DNA from: Comamonadaceae bacterium
GTDB lineage: Bacteria > Pseudomonadota > Gammaproteobacteria > Burkholderiales > Burkholderiaceae_C
Assembly (NCBI GenBank): GCA_027486255.1
Contig: JAIXPL010000065.1
Coordinates: forward strand, 1-63,418
Length of the DNA: 63,418 nt
Reading direction: 5' to 3'
Shown: positions 16,025 through 32,841 of the stretch, piece by piece
How the letters are laid out: every line of letters begins with the position of its first letter
Numbering within the stretch: position 1 is the first letter of the stretch
Position numbers and translations under genes: made by a program
The notes under the pieces: generated by a model
What the model saw: only the letters and a program-made list of their open reading frames with translations
The model's database searches: none
What the model was told of the DNA's origin: nothing

Positions 16025-16348
16025 ATGGCTGTGACCCTGACCGACGCGGCTGCGCGTCATGTGACTCGTTACATCGCCAAGCGAGGCAAAGGCATCGGCA
16101 TTCGCCTGGGCGTCAAGACCACGGGCTGCTCGGGCCTGGCCTACAAGCTCGAATACGCCGATGAGGCTGCGCCCGAGGATGTGCTGTTCGAGGACAACGG
16201 CGTGACGGTGCTGGTGGACCCCAAGAGCATGGCTTACATCGACGGCACCGAACTCGACTTCGTGCGCGAGGGCCTCAATGAGGGCTTCAAGTTCAGCAAC
16301 CCCAACGAGCGCGACCGCTGCGGCTGCGGCGAGAGCTTTCGCGTTTGA
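16025..16348 (+). CDS. iscA: A-type Fe-S carrier IscA
   Basis: A-type carrier that accepts Fe-S clusters or iron and hands them to apo-enzymes, especially [4Fe-4S] proteins. The 107-aa product has the three invariant cysteines Cys35, Cys99 and Cys101 (TTGCSGLAY and DRCGCGESF) at exactly the E. coli positions. It lies 39 bases after iscU in the operon. Confidence 0.97.
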
Positions 16349-16389
16349 GCCTTCCCGGGTCCGCCCGGTCAGAGCGGCCCCTGTTTTCC

Positions 16390-16908
16390 ATGAATCTCCA
16401 ATCCAACGACTTCGAGCTGTTCGGTCTGCCACAGCAGTACGCGCAGGACCGGGCCCTGGTGGAGAGTCGGTGGAAGGAGCTGCAGAAAATGGCGCACCCA
16501 GACCGCTTCGCCGCCGAGGGCGCCGCCGCCCAGCGGGTGGCCATGCAGTGGTCGGTGCGCATCAACGAGGCGCACCAGCGCCTCAAAGACCCGCTCAAGC
16601 GCGCCGCCTACCTGTGTGAGATGCGTGGCGCGCCCATCGGCGCCCATGACAACACCGCCATGCCGCCGGACTTTTTGATCCAGCAAATGGCCTGGCGCGA
16701 GGCGCTCGACGATGCTCAACACACCGACGAACTCGAAGCCCTCTATGACCAGACCCAGACCGCTCGGTCCGGTGCGCTGGCAGACATTGAGCGCAGCCTC
16801 GACCAGCAGGCCAGCCCCGCAAAGGCCGCCCAGGCCGTGCGCCGGTTGATGTTCATTGAGCGCTTTGCCCATGAGGTGCAGGAGCGCCTGGACCGCCTGT
16901 CAGCCTGA
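16390..16908 (+). CDS. hscB: Co-chaperone HscB
   Basis: J-domain protein that brings IscU to HscA and stimulates its ATPase. The J-domain motif HPD is in KMAHPDRFAA near residue 37, and the C-terminal three-helix IscU-binding domain follows. The ATG at 16390 (MNLQSNDFELFGLPQQYA) gives 172 aa, the usual length; an upstream in-frame ATG at 16345 would add 15 residues with no family similarity and almost touches the iscA stop. Confidence 0.95.
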   Translation: MNLQSNDFELFGLPQQYAQDRALVESRWKELQKMAHPDRFAAEGAAAQRVAMQWSVRINEAHQRLKDPLKRAAYLCEMRGAPIGAHDNTAMPPDFLIQQMAWREALDDAQHTDELEALYDQTQTARSGALADIERSLDQQASPAKAAQAVRRLMFIERFAHEVQERLDRLSA

Positions 16909-16938
16909 GGCTCACCCGCTCGCTTATTTCTTTCTTCC

Positions 16939-18804
16939 ATGGCACTTCTTCAGATTTCCGAGCCCGGTCAAGCCCCCGACCCGCACCAACGGCGCATCGG
17001 CATCGGCATCGACCTCGGAACCACGCACTCGCTGGTGGCCGCGGTCCGTCATGGCGTGGCCGAGTGCCTGCCCGACGAACAGGGCAGGGTGATCCTGCCC
17101 AGCGTGGTCCGTTACCTGGAAGGGGGCGGCCGCCAGATCGGCCTGGATGCCCTGGCCTCGCAGGTCGACGACCCGCTCAACACCATTGCCTCGGTCAAGC
17201 GCCTGATGGGGCGCGGCCTGGCCGACGTGAAGGCTCAGCTGCCCTACGAGCTGATCGACAAGCCCGGCATGGTGGCCATCCGCACCCGTGCTGGCGAAAA
17301 AAGCCCCGTCGAGGTCAGCGCCGAGATCCTGGCCACCTTGCGCTACCGCGCCGAGGACAGCTTCAATGCCGACATCGATGGCGCCGTCATCACGGTACCC
17401 GCTTACTTTGACGAAGCCCAGCGTCAGGCCACCAAAGATGCAGCCCAGCTCGCCGGCCTGAACGTGCTGCGCCTGATCAACGAGCCCACGGCCGCCGCCA
17501 TCGCCTATGGCCTGGACCACCAGAGCGAAGGTCTGTTTGCCGTGTACGACTTGGGTGGCGGCACCTTTGACATTTCCATCCTGCGGCTCACCCGCGGGGT
17601 GTTTGAGGTGGTGGCCACCGGCGGAGACTCGGCCCTGGGCGGCGACGACTACGACCGGGCCATTGCCGACTGGCTGCTCGCCCATAACGGCGTGGCAGCT
17701 GCTGCCGTTGCGTCCTTGAGCGCTTCGGCGCGGGCGCAACTGCATCGCCAGGCGCGCCAGGCCAAGGAGACCCTCAGCACACAGGACAGCGTGGCCCTGG
17801 ACGTGGTGCTCGACGGCCGCCCCCTGTCGGCCAAGCTCGATCGCACAACCCTGGCCCAGGTCACCGCGGCCCTGACTGACCGTACTTTGTCTGCGGTGCG
17901 GCGTGCACTGCGCGATGCCCAGCTGGGCAAGGACGAGATCCAGGGCGTCGTGATGGTCGGCGGCTCCACCCGCATGCCTGTGGTGCAGGAAGCGGTGCGC
18001 GCATTCTTTGGCCGTGAACCCCTGACCAACCTCAACCCCGACGAAGTCGTGGCCCTGGGCGCAGCCCTGTCGGCCCATCAACTCGGGGGCAACCGGGGCG
18101 GCGACGACCTGCTGCTGCTCGATGTGATTCCGCTGTCGTTGGGCATCGAGACCATGGGCGGGCTGGTCGAGCGCATCGTGCCGCGCAACCAGACCATCCC
18201 CACGGCCATGGCCCAGGACTTCACCACCTACAAAGACGGGCAGACCGCCTTGGCCCTGCACGTGCTGCAGGGCGAGCGCGATCTGGTGGCCGATTGCCGA
18301 AGCCTCGCCCGCTTCGAGCTGCGCGGCATCCCGCCCATGGCGGCGGGCGCTGCCCGCATCCGCGTTTCTTTCACGGTGGATGCCGATGGATTGCTCACCG
18401 TGAGTGCCCGCGAGCAGCTCAGCGGCGTGGAGGCGCAGATCGACGTCAAGCCCTCCTACGGCCTGGCCGACGAAGACATCGCCCGCATGCTGCAAGAGAG
18501 TTTTTCCACGGCCCAGCAGGACATCCAGGCCCGGGCGCTGGCCGAGGCCCAGGTCGATGCCGACCGTATGTTGCTGGCCACGCAGAGCGCCCTCGATCTT
18601 GACAGCGAATTGCTCGCCCAAGACGAGCGTCTTCGCATTGATGCGCTGATGGCTGCCCTGCGCCAAGTCCGCCCAGCCGGCGATGCCGCTGCCATCGAGG
18701 CCGCCACCCAGTCCCTGGCCCACGGCACCGAGGCCTTTGCCGCCATGCGCATGAACAAGGGCATCCAGCAGGCCCTGGCCGGCAAGAACATCGCCACGAT
18801 TTAA
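16939..18804 (+). CDS. hscA: Fe-S assembly Hsp70 chaperone HscA
   Basis: Specialised Hsp70 that binds the LPPVK loop of IscU and drives cluster transfer. The 621-aa protein has the nucleotide-binding domain signatures [27 protein letters not shown] and [17 protein letters not shown], followed by the linker ([18 protein letters not shown]) and a substrate-binding domain with a C-terminal helical lid. It starts 30 bases after hscB and is followed by fdx after only 10 bases. Confidence 0.97.
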
Positions 18805-18814
18805 CCGAGACACC

Positions 18815-19153
18815 ATGCCCATCATCAAGGTCCTTCCCCATCCGGAATACTGCCCCCAGGGGGCCCAGATTTCCGCGCCTGCCGGTACCTCTATCTGCGA
18901 GGCGCTGCTGGACAATGACATCAAGATCGAGCACGCCTGCGACATGAGCTGCGCCTGCACCACCTGCCATGTGGTGGTGCGCGAGGGTTACCAGTCGCTC
19001 AACGAAGCCGACGAGAACGAAGAAGACATGCTGGACCGGGCCTGGGGCCTGGAGCCGCAGTCCCGCCTGAGCTGCCAGGCCATCCTGGCCCAGCAGGACG
19101 TGACGGTGGAAATTCCCAAGTACTCCATCAACCACGCCAAGGAAAACCACTGA
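18815..19153 (+). CDS. fdx: ISC-type [2Fe-2S] ferredoxin
   Basis: Adrenodoxin-like ferredoxin supplying electrons for cluster assembly on IscU. Cluster ligands are Cys42, Cys48, Cys51 and Cys87 (CDMSCACTTCHVVV and RLSCQA). The 112-aa length is typical. It ends the isc operon here; no iscX follows, and the next gene is convergent. Confidence 0.96.
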   Translation: MPIIKVLPHPEYCPQGAQISAPAGTSICEALLDNDIKIEHACDMSCACTTCHVVVREGYQSLNEADENEEDMLDRAWGLEPQSRLSCQAILAQQDVTVEIPKYSINHAKENH

Positions 19154-19174
19154 GCTCCTCGGGGGCCAGCGGGT

Positions 19175-19696
19175 TCAGCGGGCCTGAAAGAGCGGGTCTT
19201 CGGGCCTGAAGCAGTCCAGCAGCGCCTCGGGCATCTGGGGCGCTTGTGTCTGCAGATGCCGACGAATCAAAGGCGCCGGCCGCCAGGGCAGGGTGCTGCC
19301 ACTCCAGATGGCGCTGTCCACCACCTGCACGCCTTCTGCTTGCTGGCGCAAGGCCACCACGGCGGGGCTGAGCGCGTCGAAGCTCACCTCCGCCAGCAGC
19401 CAGTCGCCCTGAGCCAGGAGTTGGCGCAGCTGTGCGCTCTGTGAGTCGGGCGGGCTGAAGGCCTGGATCGCTGCCAGGGCCAGGCCCGCTTCGGCTGAGG
19501 CAGGCCCGTGCGTGTGCACCTCCTTGCAGCTCACCCGCAGGCCGCTGGCCTGGTCTTCCAGCCAGCCAATGGGGTCGTGCAGCTTCTCCTGCATTTTCAC
19601 GAAGCGTCGCCCATCGATCACGGGCAGGTCCACATGGGCGTTGAGCACGCCCAGGGTGGTTAAGGCCAGCAGGGTGAGCGCCACATGTTTTTTCAT
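19175..19696 (-). CDS. Small exported protein of unknown function
   Basis: Unrecognised 173-aa protein. The ATG at 19696 gives a clear signal peptide (MKKHVALTLLALTTLGVLNA, then HVDLPVIDGRRF), so it is probably periplasmic; a longer in-frame reading frame through the dnaQ promoter was rejected. The mature part has two cysteines (in RVSCKEV and LLDCFRPE) that could form a disulfide and no recognisable catalytic motif. It is divergent from dnaQ with 40 bases between starts and convergent with fdx. Confidence 0.75.
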   Translation of the reverse strand: MKKHVALTLLALTTLGVLNAHVDLPVIDGRRFVKMQEKLHDPIGWLEDQASGLRVSCKEVHTHGPASAEAGLALAAIQAFSPPDSQSAQLRQLLAQGDWLLAEVSFDALSPAVVALRQQAEGVQVVDSAIWSGSTLPWRPAPLIRRHLQTQAPQMPEALLDCFRPEDPLFQAR

Positions 19697-19736
19697 CAGG
19701 GGCGCAGTATTCCATGGCACAGCGATAATTCCGCCC

Positions 19737-20453
19737 ATGCGCCAAATCGTCCTCGACACTGAAACCACCGGTCTGTCCGCCGAGACGGGTGACCGCATCA
19801 TCGAGATTGGCTGCGTGGAGCTGGTGGCCCGAAAGCTCACTGGGAACAACAAGCATTTCTACCTGAACCCAGAGCGTGACAGCCATGAAGACGCGCTCAA
19901 GGTGCACGGCATCAGCAACGAGTTCCTCAAGGACAAGCCCAAGTTCAAGGAAGTGGCCGATGAACTGCTGGCCTACCTGCAAGGGGCTGAGCTGATCATC
20001 CACAACGCGCCGTTCGACATCGGCTTTCTGAACAAAGAGTTCGAGCTGATGGGTCGCCCGCCTTTGAAGGCCTTCCTCGGTGGTGTGATCGACAGCTTGG
20101 TCTTGGCCAAGGAAATGTTCCCTGGCAAGCGCAACTCTCTGGATGCCCTGTGCGACCGTCTGGAAGTCGATAACTCAGGTCGCACCTTCCACGGCGCCCT
20201 GCTCGATGCCGAACTCTTGGCCGAGGTCTACATCAACCTCACGCGCGGCCAGAACAGCCTGGCCATGGACATGAGCGCCGATGAAGGCCCCATCAATGCG
20301 TTCAAGACCGTGGACCTGCGGGCCTTTGACTTGCCCGTGCTGGGGGCCAATGAGTCTGAGTTGAGCGCCCACTTGGCTGTGCTGGAGGGCCTGGACAAGG
20401 CCAGCAAGGGCCAGACGGTCTGGAGAAAAATGGAAGTCCCCTCTGCCCCGTGA
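19737..20453 (+). CDS. dnaQ: DNA polymerase III epsilon subunit (3'-5' proofreading exonuclease)
   Basis: DEDDh exonuclease that proofreads for the replicative polymerase. Metal-binding motifs are ExoI with Asp7 and Glu9 (VLDTETTG), ExoII in IIHNAPFDIGFLN, and ExoIII in FHGALLDAELLAEVY with the His-x4-Asp pair. The 238-aa length matches DnaQ and leaves a C-terminal segment for polymerase alpha binding. The start at 19737 was chosen because the family begins directly with the ExoI strand; the longer frame from 19512 is not supported. Confidence 0.95.
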   Translation: MRQIVLDTETTGLSAETGDRIIEIGCVELVARKLTGNNKHFYLNPERDSHEDALKVHGISNEFLKDKPKFKEVADELLAYLQGAELIIHNAPFDIGFLNKEFELMGRPPLKAFLGGVIDSLVLAKEMFPGKRNSLDALCDRLEVDNSGRTFHGALLDAELLAEVYINLTRGQNSLAMDMSADEGPINAFKTVDLRAFDLPVLGANESELSAHLAVLEGLDKASKGQTVWRKMEVPSAP

Positions 20454-20495
20454 GGGGAAGAGGGAAAAAACCGGCTATACTCTTTGGCTTCGGTA

Positions 20496-20570
20496 GGGCG
20501 ATTAGCTCAGCGGTAGAGCACTGCATTCACACTGCAGGGGTCACATGTTCGATCCATGTATCGCCCACCA
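20496..20570 (+). tRNA. tRNA-Val (anticodon CAC)
   Basis: A complete cloverleaf of 75 bases including an encoded CCA. The acceptor stem GGGCGAT pairs with ATCGCCC; the D arm is GCTC-AGCGGTA-GAGC; the anticodon stem CTGCA/TGCAG encloses TTCACAC with anticodon CAC for valine GTG codons; the T arm is ACATG-TTCGATC-CATGT. A TATACT -10 hexamer lies at 20476-20481. Its 3' half is duplicated exactly at 27027, making it the apparent integration target of the downstream island. Confidence 0.96.
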
Positions 20571-20607
20571 ACCATTCATAAAAAACGCCACCCTCGGGTG
20601 GCGTTTT
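20523..20607 (+). repeat. Left 85-bp direct repeat (attL-like: tRNA-Val 3' half plus terminator)
   Basis: Bases 20523-20607 are identical at all 85 positions to 27027-27111, in the same orientation. The repeat covers the anticodon-arm-to-CCA part of tRNA-Val, the spacer and the terminator hairpin. The flanking bases differ on both sides. A long perfect repeat that includes a tRNA 3' end is the usual footprint of site-specific integration by a tyrosine recombinase. Confidence 0.9.
20582..20607 (+). terminator. Rho-independent terminator of tRNA-Val
   Basis: Inverted repeat AAAACGCCACCC / GGGTGGCGTTTT with a two-base apex (a four-base loop in practice), starting 11 bases after the tRNA CCA end. 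A T-run ends the right arm. An identical copy lies at 27086-27111. Confidence 0.85.
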
Positions 20608-20817
20608 GCTTTGCAGTGCCGGAATAGTGCTGGGAATCAACCTTCGACTGAGGGTCAGGTTTTCTGGGTCAGGCCCATACATGCGGGCAGATCCTCATGC
20701 ACGGGCGTGAAGCGATCACTGAGCCATCACGGCCTTTCGCATGCCGTCCAACCTGCCGTTCTAGCGAGGGCCATGGACAGGTACGCGCATGGTGGCGCAC
20801 GCTCATTCTCAGTGGCT

Positions 20818-21765
20818 TTACTCAGACGTTCTTTCGAGCACGACAAGAGGAGGGCGCGGTCCCTCGGTCTTTGCCGTGATGGGCGGCATCGGCAGCGAAT
20901 CGTCGCCAGGCACGATCACGAAGGTGTGCTCCAAGCTGTACCACCTGCCATGCACGTCTGCGTCTGGCGCCCGATCGTCGTCGTGCGCGACATATTGACC
21001 GACCAGGCTGCGAGTGACGCCAAACTGCACGTCTGTTTCCAGGTGCGGGTCATCGCTCGAATACAACTGGGAAAACTGTGTCTTGTAGCCCTGCTTGTGA
21101 ACCATGAAATGGATATGGGCCGGGCGCATGTTGTGTCGCCCTTGCGCGCGAATCAGCGCCCCGACAGGGCCGTCCACCGGAATGGGATAGCCCGAGGGCT
21201 TCACCGTGCGGAAGCGGATGCATCCATCCGAATCCGTATGAAACTTGCCTCTTAAATTCATGTGGGCTTGTTCAGGATCCTGGTTTTCGTAATACCCTTC
21301 CCCGGAAGCTTGCCACACGTCAACCACCGCATCGGGAACGGGCTGCCCATGTTGATCACGGATCCTGGCGGTAACAAACACTGGTTCTCCCGGTGTCGGT
21401 GAGCGCACGATGGAGCCGCCTTGGGGCGTGAGGGGTGAGTCCTTGCGCCAGAAAGGCCCCATGAGGTTGGCCGTGGTTTTCTCGTCTGCACCGTTGCCAT
21501 TGTTCAGCAGGCAGACAAGGGCAGACACCCCCAAGGATCCGGCTGCAAGCACAACCTCGTTGTGCGAGGAGTGGGTCAATTGACCAGCCTTGGCCACGAC
21601 TCCGCAGATCTGCCGGAATTCGGCCTCGGTCAGTGCGGTCTCTCGCACGAATGCATGCAAATGGCGGACTGCTGCAGCAAGCAGCACGCGCAGGCGGGCG
21701 TCGGGCGTGCGTTCGACCTCCGCCAAAACTGCCTCGGTCAGGTCCGATTCGGTATCGACGATCAT
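20818..21765 (-). CDS. Intradiol ring-cleavage dioxygenase (hydroxyquinol/catechol 1,2-dioxygenase family)
   Basis: Non-heme Fe(III) enzyme that opens a catechol-type ring between the two hydroxyls. The 315-aa protein has the N-terminal helical dimerisation domain (residues 1-100) and a beta-sandwich core. Iron ligands are visible as Tyr159 (WQASGEGYYE), Tyr193 (SGYPIPVDGPVG), His217 and His219 (RPAHIHF). The N-domain pattern, with TPDARL and RHLHAFVRE, looks closer to hydroxyquinol 1,2-dioxygenases than to classical CatA, but this is by eye. It starts two bases after the SDR stop (TAA-CG-ATG), so the two are co-translated. No maleylacetate reductase or muconate cycloisomerase follows. Confidence 0.88.
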   Translation of the reverse strand: MIVDTESDLTEAVLAEVERTPDARLRVLLAAAVRHLHAFVRETALTEAEFRQICGVVAKAGQLTHSSHNEVVLAAGSLGVSALVCLLNNGNGADEKTTANLMGPFWRKDSPLTPQGGSIVRSPTPGEPVFVTARIRDQHGQPVPDAVVDVWQASGEGYYENQDPEQAHMNLRGKFHTDSDGCIRFRTVKPSGYPIPVDGPVGALIRAQGRHNMRPAHIHFMVHKQGYKTQFSQLYSSDDPHLETDVQFGVTRSLVGQYVAHDDDRAPDADVHGRWYSLEHTFVIVPGDDSLPMPPITAKTEGPRPPLVVLERTSE

Positions 21766-21767
21766 CG

Positions 21768-22544
21768 TTACTTGATGTGAAGTCCACCGTCCACGACGAG
21801 GGTCGTGCCGGTGATGAAGGACGCTTCGTCGCACGCCATCCAGAGGATGGGATGAGCGATCTCGCGCGGGTCGGCCCAGCGTCCCAGCAACGAGGTGTGC
21901 TGGCGCTGCGTTTTCAGCTCCTCGATGTCCTTGCCGGCGGCTCGGGTTCGCTCGATGTGAAAGTCGGTCAGCGTGGAGCCTGGGCAGACGACGTTGGCCC
22001 GGACACCCCAGTCCGCCTCTTCGAAGGCCAAGGTGCGTGTCATTGCAATCAGGGCGGCTTTGGTGGCATCGTAAATCGCCATGCCCTTGCGTCCCTTTAC
22101 CGCGTAACAGGAAGAGACGTTGACGATGGCCCCCTTGCCCGACTTGCGTACAAAAGGGAGCACGGCCCGGCAGAAGTTGGCGTTGCCGATCATGTTGACG
22201 GCGACAACGGCTTGCCATTCCTCGGGCTGCGCCTGCGAGAGCGCCGAATAGTTGCGCATGGCGGCGTTGTTCACCAGCACGTCGATGCCGCCAAAGCGTT
22301 CCACGCAGAGCGCCGCCGCGGTATCTGCAGTGTTCTTGTCGCCGACGTCACCCGCGTAGGTGCATAACCAGCTGTCTGCGTTTTGTTTGCGGATGTTGGA
22401 TTCAGTGTGTTGCAAGGCCTTTGCATCGCAGTCCACGATCATGACAGCGGCCCCTTCGGCGCAGAACAGCGCTGCAGTGGCTGCGCCAATGCCGCCCCCT
22501 CCACCCGTGATCAGGGCCACTTTTCCCTTCAGACGCCCCGTCAC
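21768..22544 (-). CDS. Short-chain dehydrogenase/reductase (probable dihydrodiol dehydrogenase)
   Basis: Classical SDR of 258 aa from a GTG at 22544 that overlaps the Rieske stop (GTGA). The nucleotide motif TGGGGGIG covers residues 13-20, the NNAA motif is near 92-95, the catalytic Ser is at 144/145, and the YDATK motif gives Tyr158 and Lys162. The acidic VDCD after beta-2 suggests NAD preference. Lying between a Rieske oxygenase and an intradiol dioxygenase, it most plausibly rearomatises a cis-dihydrodiol to a catechol; a generic 3-oxoacyl reductase activity cannot be excluded. A longer ATG-started version would extend into the Rieske gene. Confidence 0.85.
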   Translation of the reverse strand: MTGRLKGKVALITGGGGGIGAATAALFCAEGAAVMIVDCDAKALQHTESNIRKQNADSWLCTYAGDVGDKNTADTAAALCVERFGGIDVLVNNAAMRNYSALSQAQPEEWQAVVAVNMIGNANFCRAVLPFVRKSGKGAIVNVSSCYAVKGRKGMAIYDATKAALIAMTRTLAFEEADWGVRANVVCPGSTLTDFHIERTRAAGKDIEELKTQRQHTSLLGRWADPREIAHPILWMACDEASFITGTTLVVDGGLHIK

Positions 22545-23827
22545 AGCGTATACACCGGTTTGTTCCCGTCGTACGTCAGATGGTCCTTGGCCCATTCCTG
22601 CGGTTTCTGGTCGTGCGGCAGTAGCACGCCCGCCGCTCGCACACTTTGAGCGCGCGCAGCCGTTGCCGTGGGCGATTGACCCTGCTCCAGGCCGACCGTG
22701 GCCTCGTAAAGCATTCGCCGTGCCATGGAGATGGCTCGATCGGAGGGCAGCAGCTTTTCGATGTCGTGGTTCTGTATGGGTCCCATGCTTTCCTGCAGCG
22801 ACGCATCCTGCGCCGCAAAGCCCATGACGCCGCTGTAACTGCGGCGCTCTTTCTGTGCAATGCGATCGATCAAGTAGTCGTTGTCCTTGTTCGCCGTAGG
22901 TCGCCACGTGCCGCCCGGGACGTTGGTACCCGACTCGTATTCGCAGTGCACACCTTTGCCTTCTTGCAAGTGCATGCGCTCCTCTTGCGAGAGGGGCTTG
23001 TCGGGTCGGAAGTTGATGCTCCACGCCCAGCAGTTGTGGTCGTCGATGGGCACCCACACATGCCCGCCGAGCGCGTGATCACCGAACGGCGGAATCAGGT
23101 TGTACCAGGGGAAGATCCACTGCGTCACGCGCCAGTAGTAGGAGTCCGGTTCACCCTTGCGGCGACCGAAGAGCGTCAGGCCGCCGTCGTGCTTGTCGAT
23201 CTCGAAGGTGACGTTGCCGTCCTTTTTGATGTAGTCGTTGGCCTTAGCTCCTTGGTGAAAAGGGTCGTTGTCCACTTCGAACTTGTGCACGAAGGACACA
23301 TGGCTGGTGTCGATGCCACCTTCCATGGCCTGAAGGTAGTTGCATTCCTGCAGGCGCTTGGACACGAAGACATGGTCGTCCGGCAGGTTGGCCCACTCGA
23401 TCCCCGGCGGTTCCGGTTGCATCTCCTTGGGCCCCATGTAGCCCCACACTATCCCCGCGCGCTCGATGCATGGATAACCCGCGATGTGAAACTTTTCGCA
23501 CATCTGCGGCGCCTGTGGGATGTCAACGCACTGGCCGTGGATATTGAACTTCAATCCATGATAAGCACAACGAATACCGTTTTCTTCGTTCCGACCGAAG
23601 TAAAGCGATACGCCGCGGTGCGCGCAGAACTCACTGATCAGGCCCGCCCGACCCTGACTGTCGCGGAAGGCAAGTAGTTTTTCGCCCAGGATTTGCACGC
23701 GGACCTGAGGCCCATCCGACTCGGCAATTTCGCTGGACAGCAGAATCGGCACCCAAAACCGGCGAAGCAGATTACCTGTCGGCGTACCGGGACCCGTCCG
23801 CACCAATGTCTTCATCATGTCTTTCAT
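22541..23827 (-). CDS. Rieske non-heme iron oxygenase, phthalate 4,5-dioxygenase-like oxygenase component
   Basis: Ring-hydroxylating oxygenase alpha subunit, 428 aa, of the single-subunit phthalate/3-chlorobenzoate dioxygenase group. The Rieske [2Fe-2S] ligands are Cys68, His70, Cys87 and His90 (CAHRG...CAYHG). The mononuclear iron site is GIDTSHVSFVH, with bridging Asp173 and ligands His176 and His181. No beta subunit and no reductase gene are in the island, so electrons must come from a reductase encoded elsewhere. The substrate is probably an aromatic carboxylate. It overlaps the SDR by four bases and lies 69 bases downstream of the IclR gene. Confidence 0.9.
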   Translation of the reverse strand: MKDMMKTLVRTGPGTPTGNLLRRFWVPILLSSEIAESDGPQVRVQILGEKLLAFRDSQGRAGLISEFCAHRGVSLYFGRNEENGIRCAYHGLKFNIHGQCVDIPQAPQMCEKFHIAGYPCIERAGIVWGYMGPKEMQPEPPGIEWANLPDDHVFVSKRLQECNYLQAMEGGIDTSHVSFVHKFEVDNDPFHQGAKANDYIKKDGNVTFEIDKHDGGLTLFGRRKGEPDSYYWRVTQWIFPWYNLIPPFGDHALGGHVWVPIDDHNCWAWSINFRPDKPLSQEERMHLQEGKGVHCEYESGTNVPGGTWRPTANKDNDYLIDRIAQKERRSYSGVMGFAAQDASLQESMGPIQNHDIEKLLPSDRAISMARRMLYEATVGLEQGQSPTATAARAQSVRAAGVLLPHDQKPQEWAKDHLTYDGNKPVYTL

Positions 23828-23833
23828 GGTCTT

Positions 23834-23860
23834 ATGTCCATTTTATGGGTTATGTGTCCA
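23834..23860. promoter_or_regulatory. Tandem ATGTCCATT-like sites upstream of the Rieske operon
   Basis: Between the IclR gene and the Rieske start, TTATGTCCATT and TATGTGTCCATTC occur as two near-direct repeats 20 bases apart in an AT-rich patch. The same core, ATGTCCAT, recurs in the palindrome upstream of the Bug receptor gene (24753). A shared core in two control regions suggests binding by the local IclR protein. Confidence 0.45.
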
Positions 23861-23896
23861 TTCTACGAACAGCAACTTGATGGTCAATACCCGAGG

Positions 23897-24685
23897 TCAG
23901 GGGCCTGACGGGCCTCCAAGATGGCGGGTGAGTGTTTTGCCCATATCCTTCAGAGCCACTCCGAATTCATGCACCCTGGCTTCGGTAAGCCGGACATCCG
24001 GACCGAAGACACCCAGGGAGCCGGCCACCGCGCCCGATCGGTCGAAGAACGGCACAGCAACTGCATAGGCACCCTGAATCAGTTCGTTGTGCCCCATCGC
24101 ATAGCCGCGGGCACGCGTCACTTCAAGCTGTTCACGCAGCCAGCCCAGGTCTGTTTGCGTGCCGGCTGCGTACGCCTCAAGCTGTCCTTCCTGCAGCGGC
24201 GTGAAGGCCAGGATGGCGCGCCCACTGGCTCCCCGCACCAGCTTCTCGCTGTATCCGATGCCGCGTCGAAAGCTGATCGTCTGAGGGCTCTGCATCTCGG
24301 CAATACACAGCCGCATATCGCCTCGTGGGACGAACAGCGCGACTGTCTCTGCAGTCAGTGTCCAGGCTTGTGCCATCACGGGACGCGATAAGGTGCTGAG
24401 GTCCAGCGTGCTGCTCCACACATGGGCCAACTGGGCGACGGCCGGCCCCAGCCGAAAGCGCTGGGGCTCCCGGGAGGACGAGACAAACCCTTTCTTCTCC
24501 AGAGTGCCTAAAAGCCGATACAGGGTCGGTCGACTGAGCCCGACTCGCTTGACCAAGTCGGCCACCAGGAGGTCGGGCTGCTCCGGGCTGAAAGCTGCGA
24601 GAACGTCCAGCGCCCGCTCCACAGCACGCACGCCCTCCGGGCCTTTGTCGGCAGGGATTTTTTGTTCGTCCAATTCAGCGTTCAT
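23897..24685 (-). CDS. IclR-family transcriptional regulator
   Basis: 262-aa regulator with an N-terminal winged helix-turn-helix (about residues 18-75: AVERALDVLAAFS, LVKRVGLSRPTLYRLLGTLEKKGFV) and a C-terminal IclR effector domain (GRAILAFTPLQEGQLEAYA, GYAMGHNELIQGAYAVAVPFFD). Family members control aromatic and short-chain acid catabolism. It is upstream of and co-directional with the Rieske-SDR-dioxygenase genes and divergent from the Bug genes, so it is the obvious pathway-specific switch. The effector is unknown. Confidence 0.92.
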   Translation of the reverse strand: MNAELDEQKIPADKGPEGVRAVERALDVLAAFSPEQPDLLVADLVKRVGLSRPTLYRLLGTLEKKGFVSSSREPQRFRLGPAVAQLAHVWSSTLDLSTLSRPVMAQAWTLTAETVALFVPRGDMRLCIAEMQSPQTISFRRGIGYSEKLVRGASGRAILAFTPLQEGQLEAYAAGTQTDLGWLREQLEVTRARGYAMGHNELIQGAYAVAVPFFDRSGAVAGSLGVFGPDVRLTEARVHEFGVALKDMGKTLTRHLGGPSGP

Positions 24686-24752
24686 GGTTCTAAGGGTTTT
24701 GCATCAGTTCAACCCATTGACAGATCTATGAGTATCTCGAAAATAGCATCAC

Positions 24753-24771
24753 ATGTCCATCAGGCGGACAT
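24753..24771. promoter_or_regulatory. Palindromic operator candidate between iclR and Bug receptor genes
   Basis: ATGTCCATCAGGCGGACAT has 6-base inverted arms (ATGTCC/GGACAT) around a 7-base centre. It lies in the divergent gap between the IclR gene and the first Bug gene and shares the ATGTCCAT core with sites upstream of the Rieske gene. This fits an IclR operator. Confidence 0.5.
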
Positions 24772-24814
24772 TTGGTGTGCGCCCACCTCAGGGTGCCCGG
24801 TCAAAGGAGCAAGC

Positions 24815-25792
24815 ATGCACAAGCGACATTTTCTCGTCCGTATGGCGGTTGGGGCGGCGGCCGCCGCCTTCGCATGGACCACCCCCGGCGCGATGGCCCA
24901 AGAATGGCCCGCCAAGCCCATCCGGATCCTCGTCAGCTTCGCTCCCGGGGGCTTGACGGACACCATTGCCCGCGCGCTGCAGCAAAAGCTTCAGGAAGGA
25001 TTCGGTCAGCCCGTGCTCATCGAAAACCGGCCGGGTGCCGGCGGGACACTGGCAGAGGGTCTACTGGCCAAGTCCCCGCCGGACGGCTACACCCTGTTGC
25101 TCAGCGCCGACAGTGTCCCTGCCAATCCTCACCTGATCCCCAAGCTGCCTTATGACACGTTCAAAGACTTGGCGCCTGTGAGCATGCTCGCCCGCATTCC
25201 ACTCGTCATGTTGGTGAACAACAGCGTCCCGGCGACGACGGTGAAAGACTTTGTGGCCCATGCCAAGACCCAGGGCGGTAGCTACGGCAGTCCGGGCATA
25301 GGCACCAGCAATCACCTCTATTTCGAAGTGTTCAAGGACCTTGCAGGCGTCGACATGCCCCACATCGCGTACAAGGGTGGCGGTCCGGCGATGACTGATC
25401 TGATGGGAGGCCACATCAAGTCGCTCCTGATCTCCAGCACTCTGGCCGTTCCGCAGGCCAACGGCGGCAAAGTCAAGGCCCTGGCCGTCACAAGCGACAA
25501 GCGCTTGGCGCAGATGCCGAATGTCCCGACGTTCGCAGAAGCCGGTTACCCCGATTTCAAGCCCCAGCAGTGGACCGGCCTGTTTGTCCCCAGCGGAACG
25601 CCCGCGCCTATCGTGGCCCGGATCCATGCCGAATTCGCGAAGGCCGTGCGGGCGCCCGAGGTGGTGACGAGACTGGGCGAATTGAACGCCGAACCCGTGA
25701 TGAGCTCGCAAGCAGAGTTCACGAGCTTTCTGCGCAACGAAACGCAAGTCCTCGGACGGCTGATTAAGGCGCGTGGTATCACCGCCCAGTAG
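24815..25792 (+). CDS. Bug-family (TctC-type) periplasmic solute-binding protein 1
   Basis: 325-aa Bug receptor of the tripartite tricarboxylate family. The ATG at 24815 follows AAAGGAGC and gives a twin-positive, Ala-rich signal peptide ending ...GAMAQEWPAKP. Core family signatures are present: PIRILVSFAPGGLTD, VLIENRPGAGG, AYKGGGPAMTDLMGGHI and GLFVPSGTPAPIVARI. Bug proteins bind carboxylates, often aromatic. No TctA or TctB permease is in the window, so it either docks with a permease encoded elsewhere or acts as a sensor. Confidence 0.92.
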   Translation: MHKRHFLVRMAVGAAAAAFAWTTPGAMAQEWPAKPIRILVSFAPGGLTDTIARALQQKLQEGFGQPVLIENRPGAGGTLAEGLLAKSPPDGYTLLLSADSVPANPHLIPKLPYDTFKDLAPVSMLARIPLVMLVNNSVPATTVKDFVAHAKTQGGSYGSPGIGTSNHLYFEVFKDLAGVDMPHIAYKGGGPAMTDLMGGHIKSLLISSTLAVPQANGGKVKALAVTSDKRLAQMPNVPTFAEAGYPDFKPQQWTGLFVPSGTPAPIVARIHAEFAKAVRAPEVVTRLGELNAEPVMSSQAEFTSFLRNETQVLGRLIKARGITAQ

Positions 25793-25954
25793 CGGCCTCT
25801 GGCGCTTTTGTGCCCGAGCGTTGGCACAGCGCCGACGCGCCCTTGGTGATGGCCTGGAACCTGCGCCATGACGGAACCAGTACCTCCGGTCGACATCTTG
25901 CACGTCCACACCACGCCGCGATCGCGGGATCACAAACGCACCACAGGAGAAAAA

Positions 25955-26938
25955 ATGATGAGCAACACAACGCGGCGACGGTTCGCCTTGACCGCTGGCT
26001 TGGCGGGCATTGCGCTGGCCTCTGCTCAGGCCCTGGCTCAGGAATGGGCACCTAGCAAGCCGGTGCGCATCATCGTGCCGATCGTCGGTAGCACCAACGA
26101 TGTCCTGGCGCGGCTCATTGCACCCAAGCTTCAGGAGGCTCTGGGTCAGTCCTTCGTGGTCGAGAACAAGCCGGGTGCTGGCGGGAACATCGGGGCCAAC
26201 GAGGTGGCCAAGGCTGCCCCCGATGGGCATACGCTGCTGGTGGGCTACAACGGCCCCCTGGCTATCAATGTCGGCTTGTTTGACAAGATGCCCTATGACC
26301 CCACCAAGGACTTGGCGCCGATCACCCTGGCGGTCAAGTCACCTCAGTATCTGGTGGTACATCCGGGTAGCGGCTTCAACAATGTCGCCGATTTCGTGGC
26401 CAAGTCCAAGGCGGCCCCCACGAGGTATTCCTACGGGTCCGTCGCGCTGGGCAGCGCCTCGCATCTGACCATGGAAATGTTCAAGTTGGCCGCGGGCTTT
26501 CAGATGACCCACATCCCTTACCGGGGGGCCGCTCCGGCCGTGACCGATTTGATTGCAGGCAATGTTCAGGCCGCCTTCCTGGTGCCGGGCAACGTTCAGC
26601 AATTTGTCAAGGAGGGTCGGCTTCGCTTGCTGGCCTCCACGGGGACCAAGCGCTTTGCCAGCACGCCCGACGTCCCCACCCTGAGTGAGACCTACAAGGA
26701 CTTCGAGGCCACGTCATGGATCGGCTTCCTGGCCCCGGGGGGCACGCCCGCGCCCATCATTGACCGATACCACCGGGAGATGGTGAAGATCCTCAATCAG
26801 CCGGATGTGCGCAAGAGGCTGCAGGACATGGAATTCGAGATTGTGGCCAGCAGTCCCAAGCAATTCAGTGACTGGATCAGCACTGAAATCGGGCGCTGGG
26901 GTGTGGTGATCAAGGCCACCGGTACCAAGGCCGAATGA
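25955..26938 (+). CDS. Bug-family (TctC-type) periplasmic solute-binding protein 2
   Basis: Second Bug receptor, about 327 aa, starting at one of two adjacent ATGs (25955 or 25958) after AGGAGA. The signal peptide has an RRRFALTAGLAGIALA core, a Tat-like twin arginine, and ends ALAQEW. Family segments VRIIVPIVGSTNDVLARLI, FVVENKPGAGGNIGA, YRGAAPAVTDLIAGNV and GFLAPGGTPAPIID are clear. It is a diverged paralogue of the first copy, not a recent duplicate. It closes the island before the right-hand repeat. Confidence 0.92.
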   Translation: MMSNTTRRRFALTAGLAGIALASAQALAQEWAPSKPVRIIVPIVGSTNDVLARLIAPKLQEALGQSFVVENKPGAGGNIGANEVAKAAPDGHTLLVGYNGPLAINVGLFDKMPYDPTKDLAPITLAVKSPQYLVVHPGSGFNNVADFVAKSKAAPTRYSYGSVALGSASHLTMEMFKLAAGFQMTHIPYRGAAPAVTDLIAGNVQAAFLVPGNVQQFVKEGRLRLLASTGTKRFASTPDVPTLSETYKDFEATSWIGFLAPGGTPAPIIDRYHREMVKILNQPDVRKRLQDMEFEIVASSPKQFSDWISTEIGRWGVVIKATGTKAE

Positions 26939-27026
26939 GCATGGCCGCGTGAACTCGCATCCGATGCTTGGGTTACCGATTTACTCGCGTTTGCGGTAGC
27001 CTTGCTGCACCGTCGGCAAGCCGCCA

Positions 27027-27074
27027 GCATTCACACTGCAGGGGTCACATGTTCGATCCATGTATCGCCCACCA
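27027..27074 (+). pseudogene. tRNA-Val 3' fragment
   Basis: 48 bases corresponding to the anticodon arm through CCA of tRNA-Val(CAC). The 5' acceptor strand, D arm and first bases of the anticodon stem are missing, so no functional tRNA can fold. It is what an integration event leaves at the far end of an element. Confidence 0.85.
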
Positions 27075-27085
27075 ACCATTCATAA

Positions 27086-27111
27086 AAAACGCCACCCTCG
27101 GGTGGCGTTTT
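27086..27111. terminator. Duplicated terminator hairpin at island right end
   Basis: Same AAAACGCCACCC/GGGTGGCGTTTT stem as at 20582, here followed by one further T before C (five Ts in all). With A-runs on the other side, it can act in both directions, so it may terminate the second Bug gene and the convergent TRAP operon. Confidence 0.75.
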
Positions 27112-27181
27112 TCATTTCTTCCCCAGCATTCTTTGGGGCCCGAGCAAACCAGCGCTTGCTGGTCGCCTGGGCCATGGTGCT

Positions 27182-28510
27182 TCAGATCAGCGCAGTGCTC
27201 AGCCAGGGGAAGGCGCACACCAAGAGCAGCACCAAGAACATCGCGCCCACAAAGGGCAGGGCGCCTGCAAAGATGCTCTCCACCGACACCTTGGGGTCGT
27301 TGAGGGTCGACTTGACGGTGAACACCGAGATGCCGAAGGGCGGCGTGAGCAGTCCCATCTCGACGGCCAGCACCGTGATCACGCCGAAGTGGATCAGATC
27401 AAAGCCGAAGGCCTGTGCAATCGGTGCGGCCACAGGCGTCATGATCAGCAGGATGGAGCTGGAGTCCAGGATCATGCCCAGCAGCAGCACGATGGCGATG
27501 TACAGCGCTAAAAAGCCGTAGGGTCCGAGACCCGCATCGCGCACCACGTCGGCAATCGCCACGGGGACGCCCGCCACGCTGAGCATGCGGCTGTAAAAAG
27601 CCGCAGCCACCAGCAAGATCAAAATGGTGCACGACACGCTGCCGGTTTCATGCAGCACGCGCCAGAGATTGCCCTTGCCCAGCGACTTGCGCAGCAGCGC
27701 GATCACCAGCGCACCGAAGGCACCCACGCCACCGGCTTCGGTGGGCGTGAAGAAGCCGCCGTACAGACCGCCCAGCACCAGCGCCACCAGGGCAGCGATG
27801 GGGAGCAGCTTGCCAGCCATCTGGCTGCCGGTCAGCGTGATGCCGATGCGGTTCTCGCGCGCCAGCTCAGCTTGGCGCTCAAGATCGAACACCTTGCCGG
27901 GTGTAAAGCGCGCCATCAGCATGATCATCACCGCGAACACGATGGCCAGCATGAAGCCGGGAATCACGCCGGCGATGAACAGCTTGCCGATCGATTGCTC
28001 GGCCAGTACGCCGTAGATGATCATCAACAGGCTGGGCGGAATCATCATGCCCAGCACCGAGCTGCCGGCCACGGTGCCGGTGGCAAAGGTGGTTCGGTAG
28101 CCGTGGCGCACCATCTCTGGGACCGCCACACGGGTGAACACCGCCGCCGATGCGATCGATACGCCCGTGACCGCCGCGAACACCGTATTCGCCGCCACGG
28201 TGGCCACGCCCAGACCGCCACGCACCTTGCGCAGCAGCACTTCGGCCACGGTGAAAGTGTCCTTGCCCACATTCGATATGCTGACCAGCAAGCCCATCAG
28301 CACGAAAAGCGGGATGGTGGCGAAGATGTAGTCGGCCACACCGTTGTAGGCGGCCATGTACATCAGCCGCATGGCCATGTCGATGTTGTCTCGCACCAGC
28401 CAGACGCCGAAGAATCCGACCGCCAGCAGCGCCACGCCAATGTGTACGCCCAGCAGCACCAACAGCACGAGGCCGCCAACTAGCAGGCCTCCCAGTCCAA
28501 GCTCGCTCAT
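27182..28510 (-). CDS. dctM: TRAP transporter large permease (DctM family)
   Basis: Integral membrane subunit of a sodium-coupled tripartite ATP-independent transporter. From the ATG at 28510 the protein is 442 aa with about 12 hydrophobic segments. Conserved DctM patches include ATIPLFVLMGLL, AAVTGVSIASAAVF, MMIPPSLLMIIYG, FTPTEAGGVGA and LTPPFGISVFTVK. Its start overlaps the DctQ stop by four bases. It is the last gene of the TetR-DctP-DctQ-DctM run. Confidence 0.93.
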   Translation of the reverse strand: MSELGLGGLLVGGLVLLVLLGVHIGVALLAVGFFGVWLVRDNIDMAMRLMYMAAYNGVADYIFATIPLFVLMGLLVSISNVGKDTFTVAEVLLRKVRGGLGVATVAANTVFAAVTGVSIASAAVFTRVAVPEMVRHGYRTTFATGTVAGSSVLGMMIPPSLLMIIYGVLAEQSIGKLFIAGVIPGFMLAIVFAVMIMLMARFTPGKVFDLERQAELARENRIGITLTGSQMAGKLLPIAALVALVLGGLYGGFFTPTEAGGVGAFGALVIALLRKSLGKGNLWRVLHETGSVSCTILILLVAAAFYSRMLSVAGVPVAIADVVRDAGLGPYGFLALYIAIVLLLGMILDSSSILLIMTPVAAPIAQAFGFDLIHFGVITVLAVEMGLLTPPFGISVFTVKSTLNDPKVSVESIFAGALPFVGAMFLVLLLVCAFPWLSTALI

Positions 28511-29076
28511 GCGCCACCTCCCAATGGATCGTCCACAGGTCCGGTCTTGCCGTGTTGGCGCAGGATGCCGGGAATCGTTAGTACATAGCAAAGTGCGGCC
28601 GCCGCGGAGCCGGCAATGATCAGGCCGCGAAACGGCCAAGCCGGCACGCTGTACACGCCTTGCACACCATAAAACTCGTTGCTGGCCCAGGAATTGCGGA
28701 ATTCTGGCCAGGCCATGGCAGCCAGTGCGGCGAACAGGGCTGCGCCTACCAGCGCGTTGAACACGTCAAGCGCCGTCACTGCAGCTGGTGAGCGCTTGCC
28801 AATCAGGTTCAGCAGGAAGTCGCTGCGGGTCATGCGGCCGCTGCACACCGCTGCGGCCAACTGCAAGAAGACGATGGACGCCACCGAGCGCGCCGAGAAC
28901 TCAGCTACGCCAGTGATGGGGCTGTTGAGAAAGTCGCGGCCAATCACGTCGGCCACCACCAGGCACATGATCACGAAGATCCATACCGTACCGACCGAGG
29001 CCAATGCTTGGGCAGGAAAGTCCAGTGGATGTCGCGCTCTGGGCGCAGGAGCGTCAAGGTCAACGTCAGCAGCCAT
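28507..29076 (-). CDS. dctQ: TRAP transporter small permease (DctQ family)
   Basis: 189-aa membrane protein with four predicted helices and the family stretch VWIFVIMCLVVADVIGRDFLNSPITGVAEFSARSVASIVFLQLA. It pairs with DctM and receives substrate from the periplasmic binding protein. The Pro-rich N-terminus lacks a signal peptide, as usual. It begins 100 bases after dctP. Confidence 0.9.
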   Translation of the reverse strand: MAADVDLDAPAPRARHPLDFPAQALASVGTVWIFVIMCLVVADVIGRDFLNSPITGVAEFSARSVASIVFLQLAAAVCSGRMTRSDFLLNLIGKRSPAAVTALDVFNALVGAALFAALAAMAWPEFRNSWASNEFYGVQGVYSVPAWPFRGLIIAGSAAAALCYVLTIPGILRQHGKTGPVDDPLGGGA

Positions 29077-29176
29077 GATCTATGGAGTCTTTCAACAATA
29101 AAGTCCGTCCGGTCGACCTCACCGCATGGTGAGGACGTGCCGGACGGACCGGGGTCATCAGCGCGTCAAGCGGCCT

Positions 29177-30247
29177 TCAGCGGGCAGCCTTGTCCCAGTC
29201 ACGCAGAGGCTTGATGCCTCGGGCGCGCAGCTCGTCAAAGTAGGCGCGCAGCACCGACTTGCCTGCATCGCCAGTGGTCTGCAGCCACGGGCTGATGATG
29301 TCGGGCAGGCCGTTGATCCACTTGGCGCGCTCGGCGGCCGGCAGCTCAGAGATCTGCAGACCGGCGGCTTTCATCGTGTCCATGGCGCGTGCAGACGATG
29401 CGGTCACATGCTTGCCGTGGGCGATCGAGGTGGCGCGGCCAGCCTTGACGAAGGCGTCCTGCACATCCTTGGGCAGCTTATCGAAAAAGCTCTTATTGGC
29501 CGCCACGCTGCCAAAGTACATGGCGCCGACATCCACGCGGGTCAGGTACTTGGCCACCTCGTGCACACGGGCCGGAGCGATGCCGCTGGCAAAGCTCAGA
29601 GCGCCCTGGGTCACGCCGGTCTGGATGTTGGTGTAGTAGGTGGTGAGTGCACCTTCCACCGGTGTGGCGCCGGTATCGCGCATCCAGTTGGCCGAGGTGC
29701 CCGGCGCGTGGATTTTCTTGTTCTGCAGTGCGGCCATGTTGGTGACCGGGAAGTTGGCGTACACGTCGTAGCTGTCGGTAATCAGGCTCGACAGCGGCAC
29801 CATGTTCTGCGCTGTCCAGCTGGCCCTGAGCGCAGGATGGTTGGCGTTGAGCTTGTCGAAAATCTCAATCAGCAGTTCGTGGTTGGTGGTGGCAAAGGGC
29901 GTGAAGTAGGTCACGTTTTGCAGCGGCATGGCGGAGTTCTCCCAGACCGTACCGACCATGCCCACATCGACGATGCCGTCTTTCACGGCAGCGCGCGTTT
30001 CGTTGAACTTGTACAGCGTGCCGCCGTAGTTCTCACGCCAGCGGATCTGGTATTTGCTGCCGCCTTCCTTGAGCAGCTTGTCCACCTCGGGCTGGAACAC
30101 CTCTTTCATGGCGTAGGCCCAAATGTTGGTGGCCGGATGGCTCGAGCCGATGTTCACGGTGATGGACTGCTGGGCGGCGGCGCCACCAGCGGCCAATGCG
30201 CTGCCTAGCGCGATCAGCCCAGACAGGGCCATTTTTTTGAGCTTCAT
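29177..30247 (-). CDS. dctP: TRAP transporter substrate-binding protein (DctP family)
   Basis: Periplasmic receptor, 356 aa from the ATG at 30247, which follows AAGAGGAG. The signal peptide MKLKKMALSGLIALGSALAA is followed by GGAAAQQ. Typical DctP features are VNIGSSHPATNIWAYAMKEVF at the mature N-terminus and the NKKIHAPGTSANWMRDTGATPV region, where TRAP receptors keep an arginine that binds the substrate carboxylate. It probably captures an organic acid that is the substrate, or a precursor, of the divergent molybdenum hydroxylase. Confidence 0.92.
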   Translation of the reverse strand: MKLKKMALSGLIALGSALAAGGAAAQQSITVNIGSSHPATNIWAYAMKEVFQPEVDKLLKEGGSKYQIRWRENYGGTLYKFNETRAAVKDGIVDVGMVGTVWENSAMPLQNVTYFTPFATTNHELLIEIFDKLNANHPALRASWTAQNMVPLSSLITDSYDVYANFPVTNMAALQNKKIHAPGTSANWMRDTGATPVEGALTTYYTNIQTGVTQGALSFASGIAPARVHEVAKYLTRVDVGAMYFGSVAANKSFFDKLPKDVQDAFVKAGRATSIAHGKHVTASSARAMDTMKAAGLQISELPAAERAKWINGLPDIISPWLQTTGDAGKSVLRAYFDELRARGIKPLRDWDKAAR

Positions 30248-30354
30248 GCGATCTCCTCTTGGGTAAATGACGGCTGAGGCCAGCCGAGGGCGGGTGACAT
30301 TGCAGCCCTTCGGCTGCGGCGGGGGGGAAACACTTTCATGCGGTGCGTCGACAG

Positions 30355-31113
30355 TCATGCTCGCTTTTTGGCGCGCAGTGTGGTGGTGTGGACGGGCTGC
30401 GTTGGCCGCGATGGGGATTCTGTGCCGAACAGCGCGCGGCTGGCGACAAGGTAGCCGCGCACGCGGTCGCGCACCAGTGCCTCGCTAAAGCGGTCGGGCG
30501 CCGCGTCGCTGGCCACGCCCTGCGCGTAGATCCAGCGGCGCATCGGAATATAGAAAAAGCCGCCATGCAGCCCCATCAGCAGCTCGGTTTCACGCTCGCT
30601 GGCACGCGCACGGCTGCTCACGCCCCGAAAGCGCCGAGTTTCACGAATCAGGCGCGTGAACAGGCGTTGGCGCAGCAGTGAGAAAAAGCGGTCCGTGATG
30701 GTGTGGTCGGTCAGCCCGGAGAACACCAAGATTCGTACAAATTCGCGGGTGAGCGCGGCATTGACGTACTCGACGTAGAAGTCGGTCAGCTTGTCCTCGG
30801 GCGAGCCCGCCGCATCGTCGAGCAGCGTTTCCCACTCGGGCTGCCAGCGCCCCTCGAACAACTCCAAATACACGCGGTCGATCAGCGCCTGCTTGGTGGG
30901 GAAGTAGTGGTAAAGCAGCGCATGCGTCACGCCAATGCTGCTGGCCAGGTCCCGCAGTTGCCCGTCCAGGCCCTTGTCGGCAAAGAACTGGATCGCGCCA
31001 TCGAGAATCTGGCGCTCGCGCTCAGCCACACCCAGCCTGCGGCGTGCCACAGGAGCAGCATCTCCTGCTCGGGCCACGGCGCGAGGGCGATCAGGGTTTT
31101 TCTGGATGGGCAC
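30355..31113 (-). CDS. TetR-family regulator of the TRAP/molybdenum hydroxylase divergon
   Basis: 252-aa regulator from a GTG start at 31113; a longer frame running back over the operator was rejected. The N-terminal TetR domain spans about residues 30-80 (RERQILDGAIQFFADKGLDGQLRDLASSIGVTHALLYHYFPTK, recognition helix THALLYHYFP). The C-terminal ligand domain ends in a basic tail. It is divergent from coxG over a symmetrical operator and co-directional with dctP, dctQ and dctM, with a GCAGCC/GGCTGC hairpin (30302-30317) in the gap to dctP. Confidence 0.88.
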   Translation of the reverse strand: MPIQKNPDRPRAVARAGDAAPVARRRLGVAERERQILDGAIQFFADKGLDGQLRDLASSIGVTHALLYHYFPTKQALIDRVYLELFEGRWQPEWETLLDDAAGSPEDKLTDFYVEYVNAALTREFVRILVFSGLTDHTITDRFFSLLRQRLFTRLIRETRRFRGVSSRARASERETELLMGLHGGFFYIPMRRWIYAQGVASDAAPDRFSEALVRDRVRGYLVASRALFGTESPSRPTQPVHTTTLRAKKRA

Positions 31114-31117
31114 GCTA

Positions 31118-31164
31118 TTTACCAGGCGGTCAATTTTGCCTAGGATTGTTGACCTCCTGGTAAA
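31118..31164. promoter_or_regulatory. Inverted-repeat operator between tetR and coxG
   Basis: Arms at 31118-31133 (TTTACCAGGCGGTCAA) and 31149-31164 (TTGACCTCCTGGTAAA) are inverted copies with 15 of 16 matches, separated by 15 bases. Each arm also contains its own ACC-N4-GGT dyad. The first arm begins only five bases upstream of the tetR GTG, so binding would block tetR and could also control the cox operon on the other side. This is strong evidence of TetR autoregulation. Confidence 0.75.
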
Positions 31165-31237
31165 CAAAAACACTCGTGAAAACCCCAAGACCTCACGCGG
31201 CATGCGTCCAGCATGCGAGCGCCTCCGGAAAAAACGC

Positions 31238-31909: not shown

Positions 31910-31939
31910 TTCAAACTGCACACCCCTGAGGAGTCCGCA

Positions 31940-32815: not shown

Positions 32816-32841
32816 AATCACCTGAACCGACGGAGACTGTC

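Follow-up and report, generated by a model that had tools for sequence, protein, structure and literature searches.

A block of catabolic genes flanked by two identical copies of the 3' part of a tRNA-Val(CAC) gene was identified on contig JAIXPL010000065.1 of a Comamonadaceae bacterium (assembly GCA_027486255.1), of which positions 1 to 63,418 were analysed (termed the window). This block (20608-27026 plus one repeat copy) is very probably a small genomic island which was inserted into the tRNA gene by a tyrosine integrase and which today is without one, being either a relic that resembles a cis-mobilizable element (CIME) or a passenger. The features of the locus, with attL and attR denoting its left and right attachment sites, are as follows:

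19737-20453, plus strand: dnaQ-type exonuclease gene of the conserved left flank (RNase_T; ATG at 19737)
20496-20570, plus strand: intact tRNA-Val(CAC) on the proximal (attL) side (ARAGORN; cloverleaf fold)
20523-20607, plus strand: left (attL) repeat copy, comprising tRNA bases 28-75 and the terminator (repeat comparison)
20608-20817, no strand: left island end, 210 nt, with no recognised gene and no integrase or convincing remnant of one
20818-21720, minus strand: predicted intradiol dioxygenase, hydroxyquinol 1,2-dioxygenase-like, 5' end not fixed (Dioxygenase_C, Dioxygenase_N)
21768-22553, minus strand: predicted dehydrogenase of the short-chain dehydrogenase/reductase (SDR) family, 5' end approximate (adh_short_C2)
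22541-23827, minus strand: predicted Rieske oxygenase alpha subunit, isophthalate-dioxygenase-like (Rieske and LigXa_C)
23897-24685, minus strand: IclR-family regulator (domain match)
24815-25792, plus strand: TctC solute-binding protein 1 (domain match)
25955-26938, plus strand: TctC solute-binding protein 2 (domain match)
27027-27111, plus strand: right (attR) repeat copy, comprising the displaced tRNA 3' fragment and the terminator (repeat comparison, phage cores)
27182-28639, minus strand: dctM of a tripartite ATP-independent periplasmic (TRAP) transporter, right flank (DctM), which directly adjoins tRNA-Val in the empty site of a sister genome

The two direct-repeat copies were found to agree at 85 of 85 positions, as an earlier note on this sequence had stated, with the left copy lying in an intact tRNA and the right copy running from tRNA base 28, inside the anticodon stem, through the T arm, the CCA and the terminator. 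Exact identity stops at 85 nt; the repeat-family listing gives 90 nt at 98%, the last 5 nt being partly different. The copies are 6,504 nt apart, and the displaced 3' fragment is situated downstream of the tRNA in the same orientation, within the 2-200 kb range used by Islander. The terminator hairpins of the left and right copies gave folding energies of -19.7 and -20.2 kcal/mol (z -5.8 and -7.0 against shuffles), and the tRNA remnant on the right folded no better than shuffles (z 0.25). When up to 3 mismatches were allowed, two occurrences of a 31-nt piece of the core were counted in the window, whereas 100 shuffles gave a mean of 0.00. ARAGORN identified no tRNA besides tRNA-Val(CAC) across the whole window. 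With the tRNA as query, the draft genome to which the window belongs (G000) returned four matches, namely the two repeat sites and two reverse-strand self-matches of the terminator hairpin, and no third repeat copy was found there.

Comparison with a sister genome (G079, contig C67) revealed the order dctP-dctQ-dctM, tRNA-Val and dnaQ, reversed relative to the window and with nothing inserted. The proteins encoded on either side share 100% (dctM), 98.4% (dctQ) and 89.4% (dnaQ) identity with those of the window. The alignment to this contig covers 13414-16908 (92.3% over 3,496 nt), 16938-20607 (90.5% over 3,671 nt) and 27027-29796 (97.0% over 2,770 nt) of the window, skipping the island, and the single tRNA-Val copy of G079 differs at one position over the 85-nt repeat. 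By alignment G079 thus presents an empty site, collinear with both flanks of the window. The earlier note had proposed a comparison with relatives lacking the segment between dnaQ and dctM, and this site indeed possesses one tRNA copy and none of the island genes; no genome among those searched combined the island genes at this position with absence of the repeat. Among the loci compared, dnaQ adjoins tRNA-Val in 14 of 20, and the joining of tRNA-Val to dctM is confined to G000 and G079. The dctMQP block and the genes that follow it (27180-35814) also match stretches of G033, G045, G080, G081, G053 and G031, in which no tRNA-Val was found.

The same tRNA serves as an integration site in other members of the genus. 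Matches to the tRNA region were obtained in 78 of the 87 genomes of the genus (own genome included), and in seven relatives (G002, G003, G005, G041, G044, G062 and G068) the full tRNA was compared with a displaced 3' fragment. The fragment starts in the anticodon stem or loop in all seven, with identity stopping at the CCA or within a few bases of it in six and continuing through the terminator in G068 (93 nt, 5 mismatches). A tyrosine integrase (PF00589) is located beside the tRNA or the fragment in six of the seven (G002, G003, G005, G041, G044 and G062), adjoining the tRNA itself in all of these except G062; the integrases of G003 and G005 are 98% identical, and the six cases represent five kinds of integrase. 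Downstream stretches were searched for 69 of the 71 loci of relatives (two being too short), and an integrase match within approximately 150 nt of the tRNA was found in eight. The same 561-aa gene follows the tRNA within approximately 0.4 kb in 16 of the 69, which we take as the common unoccupied arrangement.

These counts of occupied sites are lower bounds, as many contigs stop a short way past the tRNA, and for the long elements in G002, G003, G005 and G062 only the ends were read. Fragments of the 3' end on contigs other than that of the tRNA (including those of G067, G070 and G076) were left out, a candidate copy in G071 (39 bp, 5 mismatches) was not counted, and the locus of G086 was wrongly placed (22 of 75). 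Among individual occupants, the 7.3-kb element of G041 (L131 67-7457) carries integrase, NikA-like and RepB-primase genes and resembles an integrative mobilizable element (IME). In G044 (L127 8507-10017) the copies are 1.4 kb apart, with a tyrosine integrase as the only open reading frame of at least 90 aa wholly between them, and the sequence after its tRNA is also common to G033, G080 and G082.

Two IMG/VR viral contigs, IMGVR_UViG_3300050160_000054 (L242) and IMGVR_UViG_3300033052_000037 (L243), contain a 34-nt piece of the core. The phage cores (attP) are 50 and 51 nt long and identical to 27026-27075 and 27026-27076 of the window, starting one base ahead of tRNA position 28 and ending just past the CCA, with no tRNA 5' half in front of them. 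An integrase starts 126 and 147 nt beyond the core, respectively, sharing 71% identity over 394 residues and 77% over 182 residues with the integrase of the G005 element. PHROGs identified integrase, tail-fibre and distal-tail proteins on L242 and a tail-fibre protein on L243, the tail genes being on the opposite side of the core from the integrase. By these annotations, there are phages in which precisely this core lies beside an integrase, and their integrase would be expected to act on it. The suggestion that a tRNA 3'-end attachment site was duplicated around an acquired block was thus upheld by the empty site of G079, by integrases at the same tRNA and by phage cores that match to the base.

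In both phages and in all six cases with an integrase, the shared core is approximately 45-51 nt and ends near the CCA, whereas that of the window is approximately 35 nt longer, running past the tRNA through the host terminator and being identical in both copies. Over the 85 nt G079 shows a single difference, and the spacer of G044 is widely different. As the core includes the host terminator, the simplest inference is that the island acquired its attP from the chromosome of a close relative, at the tRNA locus. The 8.3-kb segment of G068 at the same tRNA (L132 920-9325), with its 93-nt repeat through the terminator, is possibly a second case without an integrase, none having been found in it by Pfam or tblastn. 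A link between a missing integrase and a terminator-long repeat is only noted here, on two cases (the window and G068).

Pfam typing of the six island genes identified no recombinase and no gene for integration or transfer, nor any phage structural, packaging or replication gene (PHROGs was not run on them). A tblastn search of the island with nine tyrosine recombinases returned weak matches only and no convincing remnant, no convincing trace of the relatives' integrases was found in the island, and both of its end stretches are without an integrase. The genome itself contains three PF00589 matches: a protein on contig C56, which reads to us as XerC/D-like, a 194-aa protein on C57, and an integrase on C51, which we take to be P4-like. 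None of these genes is by tRNA-Val; no tRNA was found in the 14 kb around the C51 gene, and one tRNA-Pro is situated approximately 6 kb from the C57 gene. Since the interval between the repeats contains neither an integrase nor a convincing remnant of one, the island as it stands has no means of its own to excise, and the active excision that had been suggested for it is not borne out.

It is proposed that a tyrosine integrase, which may have been of the phage type, crossed over around the anticodon loop of tRNA-Val(CAC). The tRNA 3' half brought by the island would have rebuilt the gene on the left, with the original 3' half being displaced to the right, leaving attL, attR and the catabolic cargo without an integrase. 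The island may have lost its integrase or may never have had one, and it may or may not still be excisable; today it would be a CIME-like relic, or a passenger needing an integrase supplied by a temperate phage or another element that uses the same site.

Several observations weigh against this account. The inserting enzyme would be one that the island does not encode, and the two phages and six integrase-bearing elements are not its direct source, because the core of the window extends approximately 35 nt further into the terminator. Two tblastn matches were judged to be due to chance, one within TctC1 (E 0.002) and one of 22 residues at the left end (E 0.091; 0.001 in a 260-nt test, among the matches listed). 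A single sister does not allow an insertion in G000 to be distinguished from a clean loss in G079, and because G079 reaches only 77% completeness, the portion missing from it could contain the island genes. The approximately 4 kb of left flank is a mosaic, more diverged than the right flank, so that import by homologous recombination is conceivable. The genome of the window is a fragmentary draft without reads (2.66 Mb, 85 contigs, 89.9% complete), in which an integrated copy and a free circle with an empty site would be expected to yield identical assembly graphs.

A credible sub-case of the best explanation, although one we stop just short of favouring, is that an ordinary integrase-bearing element was inserted and then decayed and became fixed through deletion of its integrase. 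The integrase of G002, G003, G005, G041 and G044 adjoins the tRNA exactly where the window has 210 nt without a recognised gene; against this, no recognisable remnant of an integrase is left, and the perfect repeat leaves little time for decay. It is also possible, though rather doubtful, that the block is a recombinase-free catabolic cassette moved in trans by tRNA-Val-specific integrases of temperate phages that infect the same clade, its attachment core being phage-compatible and terminator-extended. If so, the cassette would need no mobility gene, since a phage infection could excise it, insert it and spread it between strains.

An island already present in the common ancestor and lost from G079 by recombination between the repeats is unlikely, even though the G079 site corresponds to the exact product of such an excision. 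G000 and G079 differ by approximately 4-9% over long matches elsewhere in the window and by approximately 3-9% over the flanks. At 3-8% divergence approximately 3 to 7 mismatches would be expected in 85 nt if both copies drift, and half that if one does, against the zero observed; no close copy of the interior was seen in the genus among the matches listed. The probability of no difference in 85 nt at 3, 5 and 8% divergence is 0.08, 0.014 and 0.001 if both copies drift and 0.28, 0.12 and 0.03 if one does. The perfect repeat together with the empty site therefore favours, without proving, an insertion after the split from G079. The description of the event as recent thus holds in so far as no mismatch has accumulated between the copies while the flanks diverged from the sister, and is weakened by the span of these probabilities, from approximately 0.001 to 0.28.

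Less probable still is homologous recombination in which donor DNA carrying dnaQ, tRNA-Val, the terminator and the catabolic genes entered via the left flank, its far end joining inside the recipient tRNA, whose tail would now be the right copy. The left flank (16201-20500) is a mosaic against G079, with 200-nt bins of approximately 53-98% identity against an even 96-98% or so on the right, and may be a recombination tract of approximately 16.2-20.5 kb. The inclusion of the chromosomal terminator in the 85-bp core also fits such an import, as does the weak resemblance of approximately 20 nt past the left copy to the post-terminator sequence of G044 (a 44-nt match at 86%, starting inside the terminator). 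However, the right break coincides with the attP break base in two phages and lies near the breaks of seven other genomes, which a chance joining would not give. An assembly artefact that joined two places at a common 85-bp repeat is highly improbable, despite the draft state of the genome, as a simple chimera would place one repeat copy at one joint, whereas here two copies flank a single-copy block and the outer flanks are collinear with the empty G079 site.

The island genes had been described as six genes of aromatic metabolism, which applies to three of them, the catabolic enzymes (intradiol dioxygenase, SDR and Rieske oxygenase); the remainder comprise one IclR regulator and two TctC solute-binding proteins. 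The top match of the intradiol enzyme in the PDB is PnpC (3n9t), followed by intradiol and hydroxyquinol dioxygenases. The best solved relative of the Rieske protein is 9ina (705.7 bits), and PMC12445078 contains the codes 9INA and 9IOY and reports structures of isophthalate dioxygenase. The cargo can be categorized, from these homologies, as an isophthalate-dioxygenase-like cluster for the breakdown of an aromatic acid, the substrate being a prediction. As in the iphA2CBA1 isophthalate cluster of Comamonas (PMC12445078), a related Rieske oxygenase is accompanied by dehydrogenase and transporter genes; in contrast to it, the window has a hydroxyquinol-type intradiol dioxygenase and no reductase among the six genes.

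The tetranucleotide distance between island and contig is 0.261, against a maximum of 0.183 across 110 leave-one-out windows, and the guanine plus cytosine content of the island is 61.0% compared to 65.2% for the contig outside it. Similar clusters, with the same neighbouring genes, are present in Ramlibacter and other Comamonadaceae (the gene order of locus L012 being that of the window), in a search that listed only matches above 60 bits and that weak tRNA pieces nearby would escape. In a quick tree of Rieske proteins, made without bootstrap, the window gene falls in a group of 11 rows (two of them from one contig) with SH-aLRT 100 (Shimodaira-Hasegawa-like approximate likelihood-ratio test), together with Ramlibacter, other Comamonadaceae and a partial copy belonging to the genus member G040, and four other copies from the genus fall outside it. 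Relatives of the Rieske gene were also seen in metagenome bins L030, L046, L047, L060, L061 and L069, titled Bordetella parapertussis, titles which may be misassigned.

Against the 86 other genomes of the genus (three candidates scored per genome, the figures holding among the matches listed), the best score for the interior was 77% over approximately 0.9 kb of TctC2, elsewhere in the genome; interior pieces of approximately 100 nt reached up to 80% identity, and the left island end gave no match. Parts of the island match 109 plasmid records, none covering more than 80%, the best being a Comamonas endophytica plasmid (34% at 71.5%), and the tRNA with its terminator, used as query, gave matches in 21 plasmid and 14 phage records, again with none above 80%. 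Among viral contigs neither the right nor the left island boundary was matched, and a viral stretch fitting the Rieske-protein pattern was found to encode no Rieske relative.

The island is known in kind, from tRNA islands, CIMEs and those ssrA islands of Dehalococcoides that lack an integration module, and is unusually well documented. Islander (PMC4383910) maps genomic islands at tRNA and tmRNA genes and rejects candidates without an integrase gene. The window island shares with those islands the intact tRNA, the 3' fragment downstream in the same orientation, a crossover in the anticodon region and a length of 2-200 kb, but is without an integrase gene; the empty site in a relative, present here in G079, is a supporting feature that is not among the filters given there. 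CIMEs, as defined in PMC5704250, keep attL and attR while integration and transfer genes are absent, and the window island appears to share these traits. Its tRNA site contains no second element, and any descent from an integrative and conjugative element (ICE) or IME through loss of integration and transfer genes would have left no convincing remnant; joint movement with an element integrating at its att site, as expected of a CIME, would be hypothetical. For Dehalococcoides, PMC3146451 lists 31 islands at ssrA; 15 of these have no integration module and are suggested to be possibly cis-mobilizable. These likewise include small catabolic islands at an RNA gene, although by that account with a tmRNA, a 20-bp repeat, proposed serine recombinases and tandem islands, in contrast to the tRNA-Val, 85-bp repeat and single island here. 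Phages L242 and L243 share the left boundary of the right copy, and differ in possessing an integrase and tail genes.

At this one locus a filled site, an empty site, a phage attP with its integrase and other occupants are seen together, so that the insertion is documented to the base. Searches that require an integrase inside would miss islands like this one. The locus offers a testable case in which a cluster for pollutant degradation may spread as cargo without a mobility gene.

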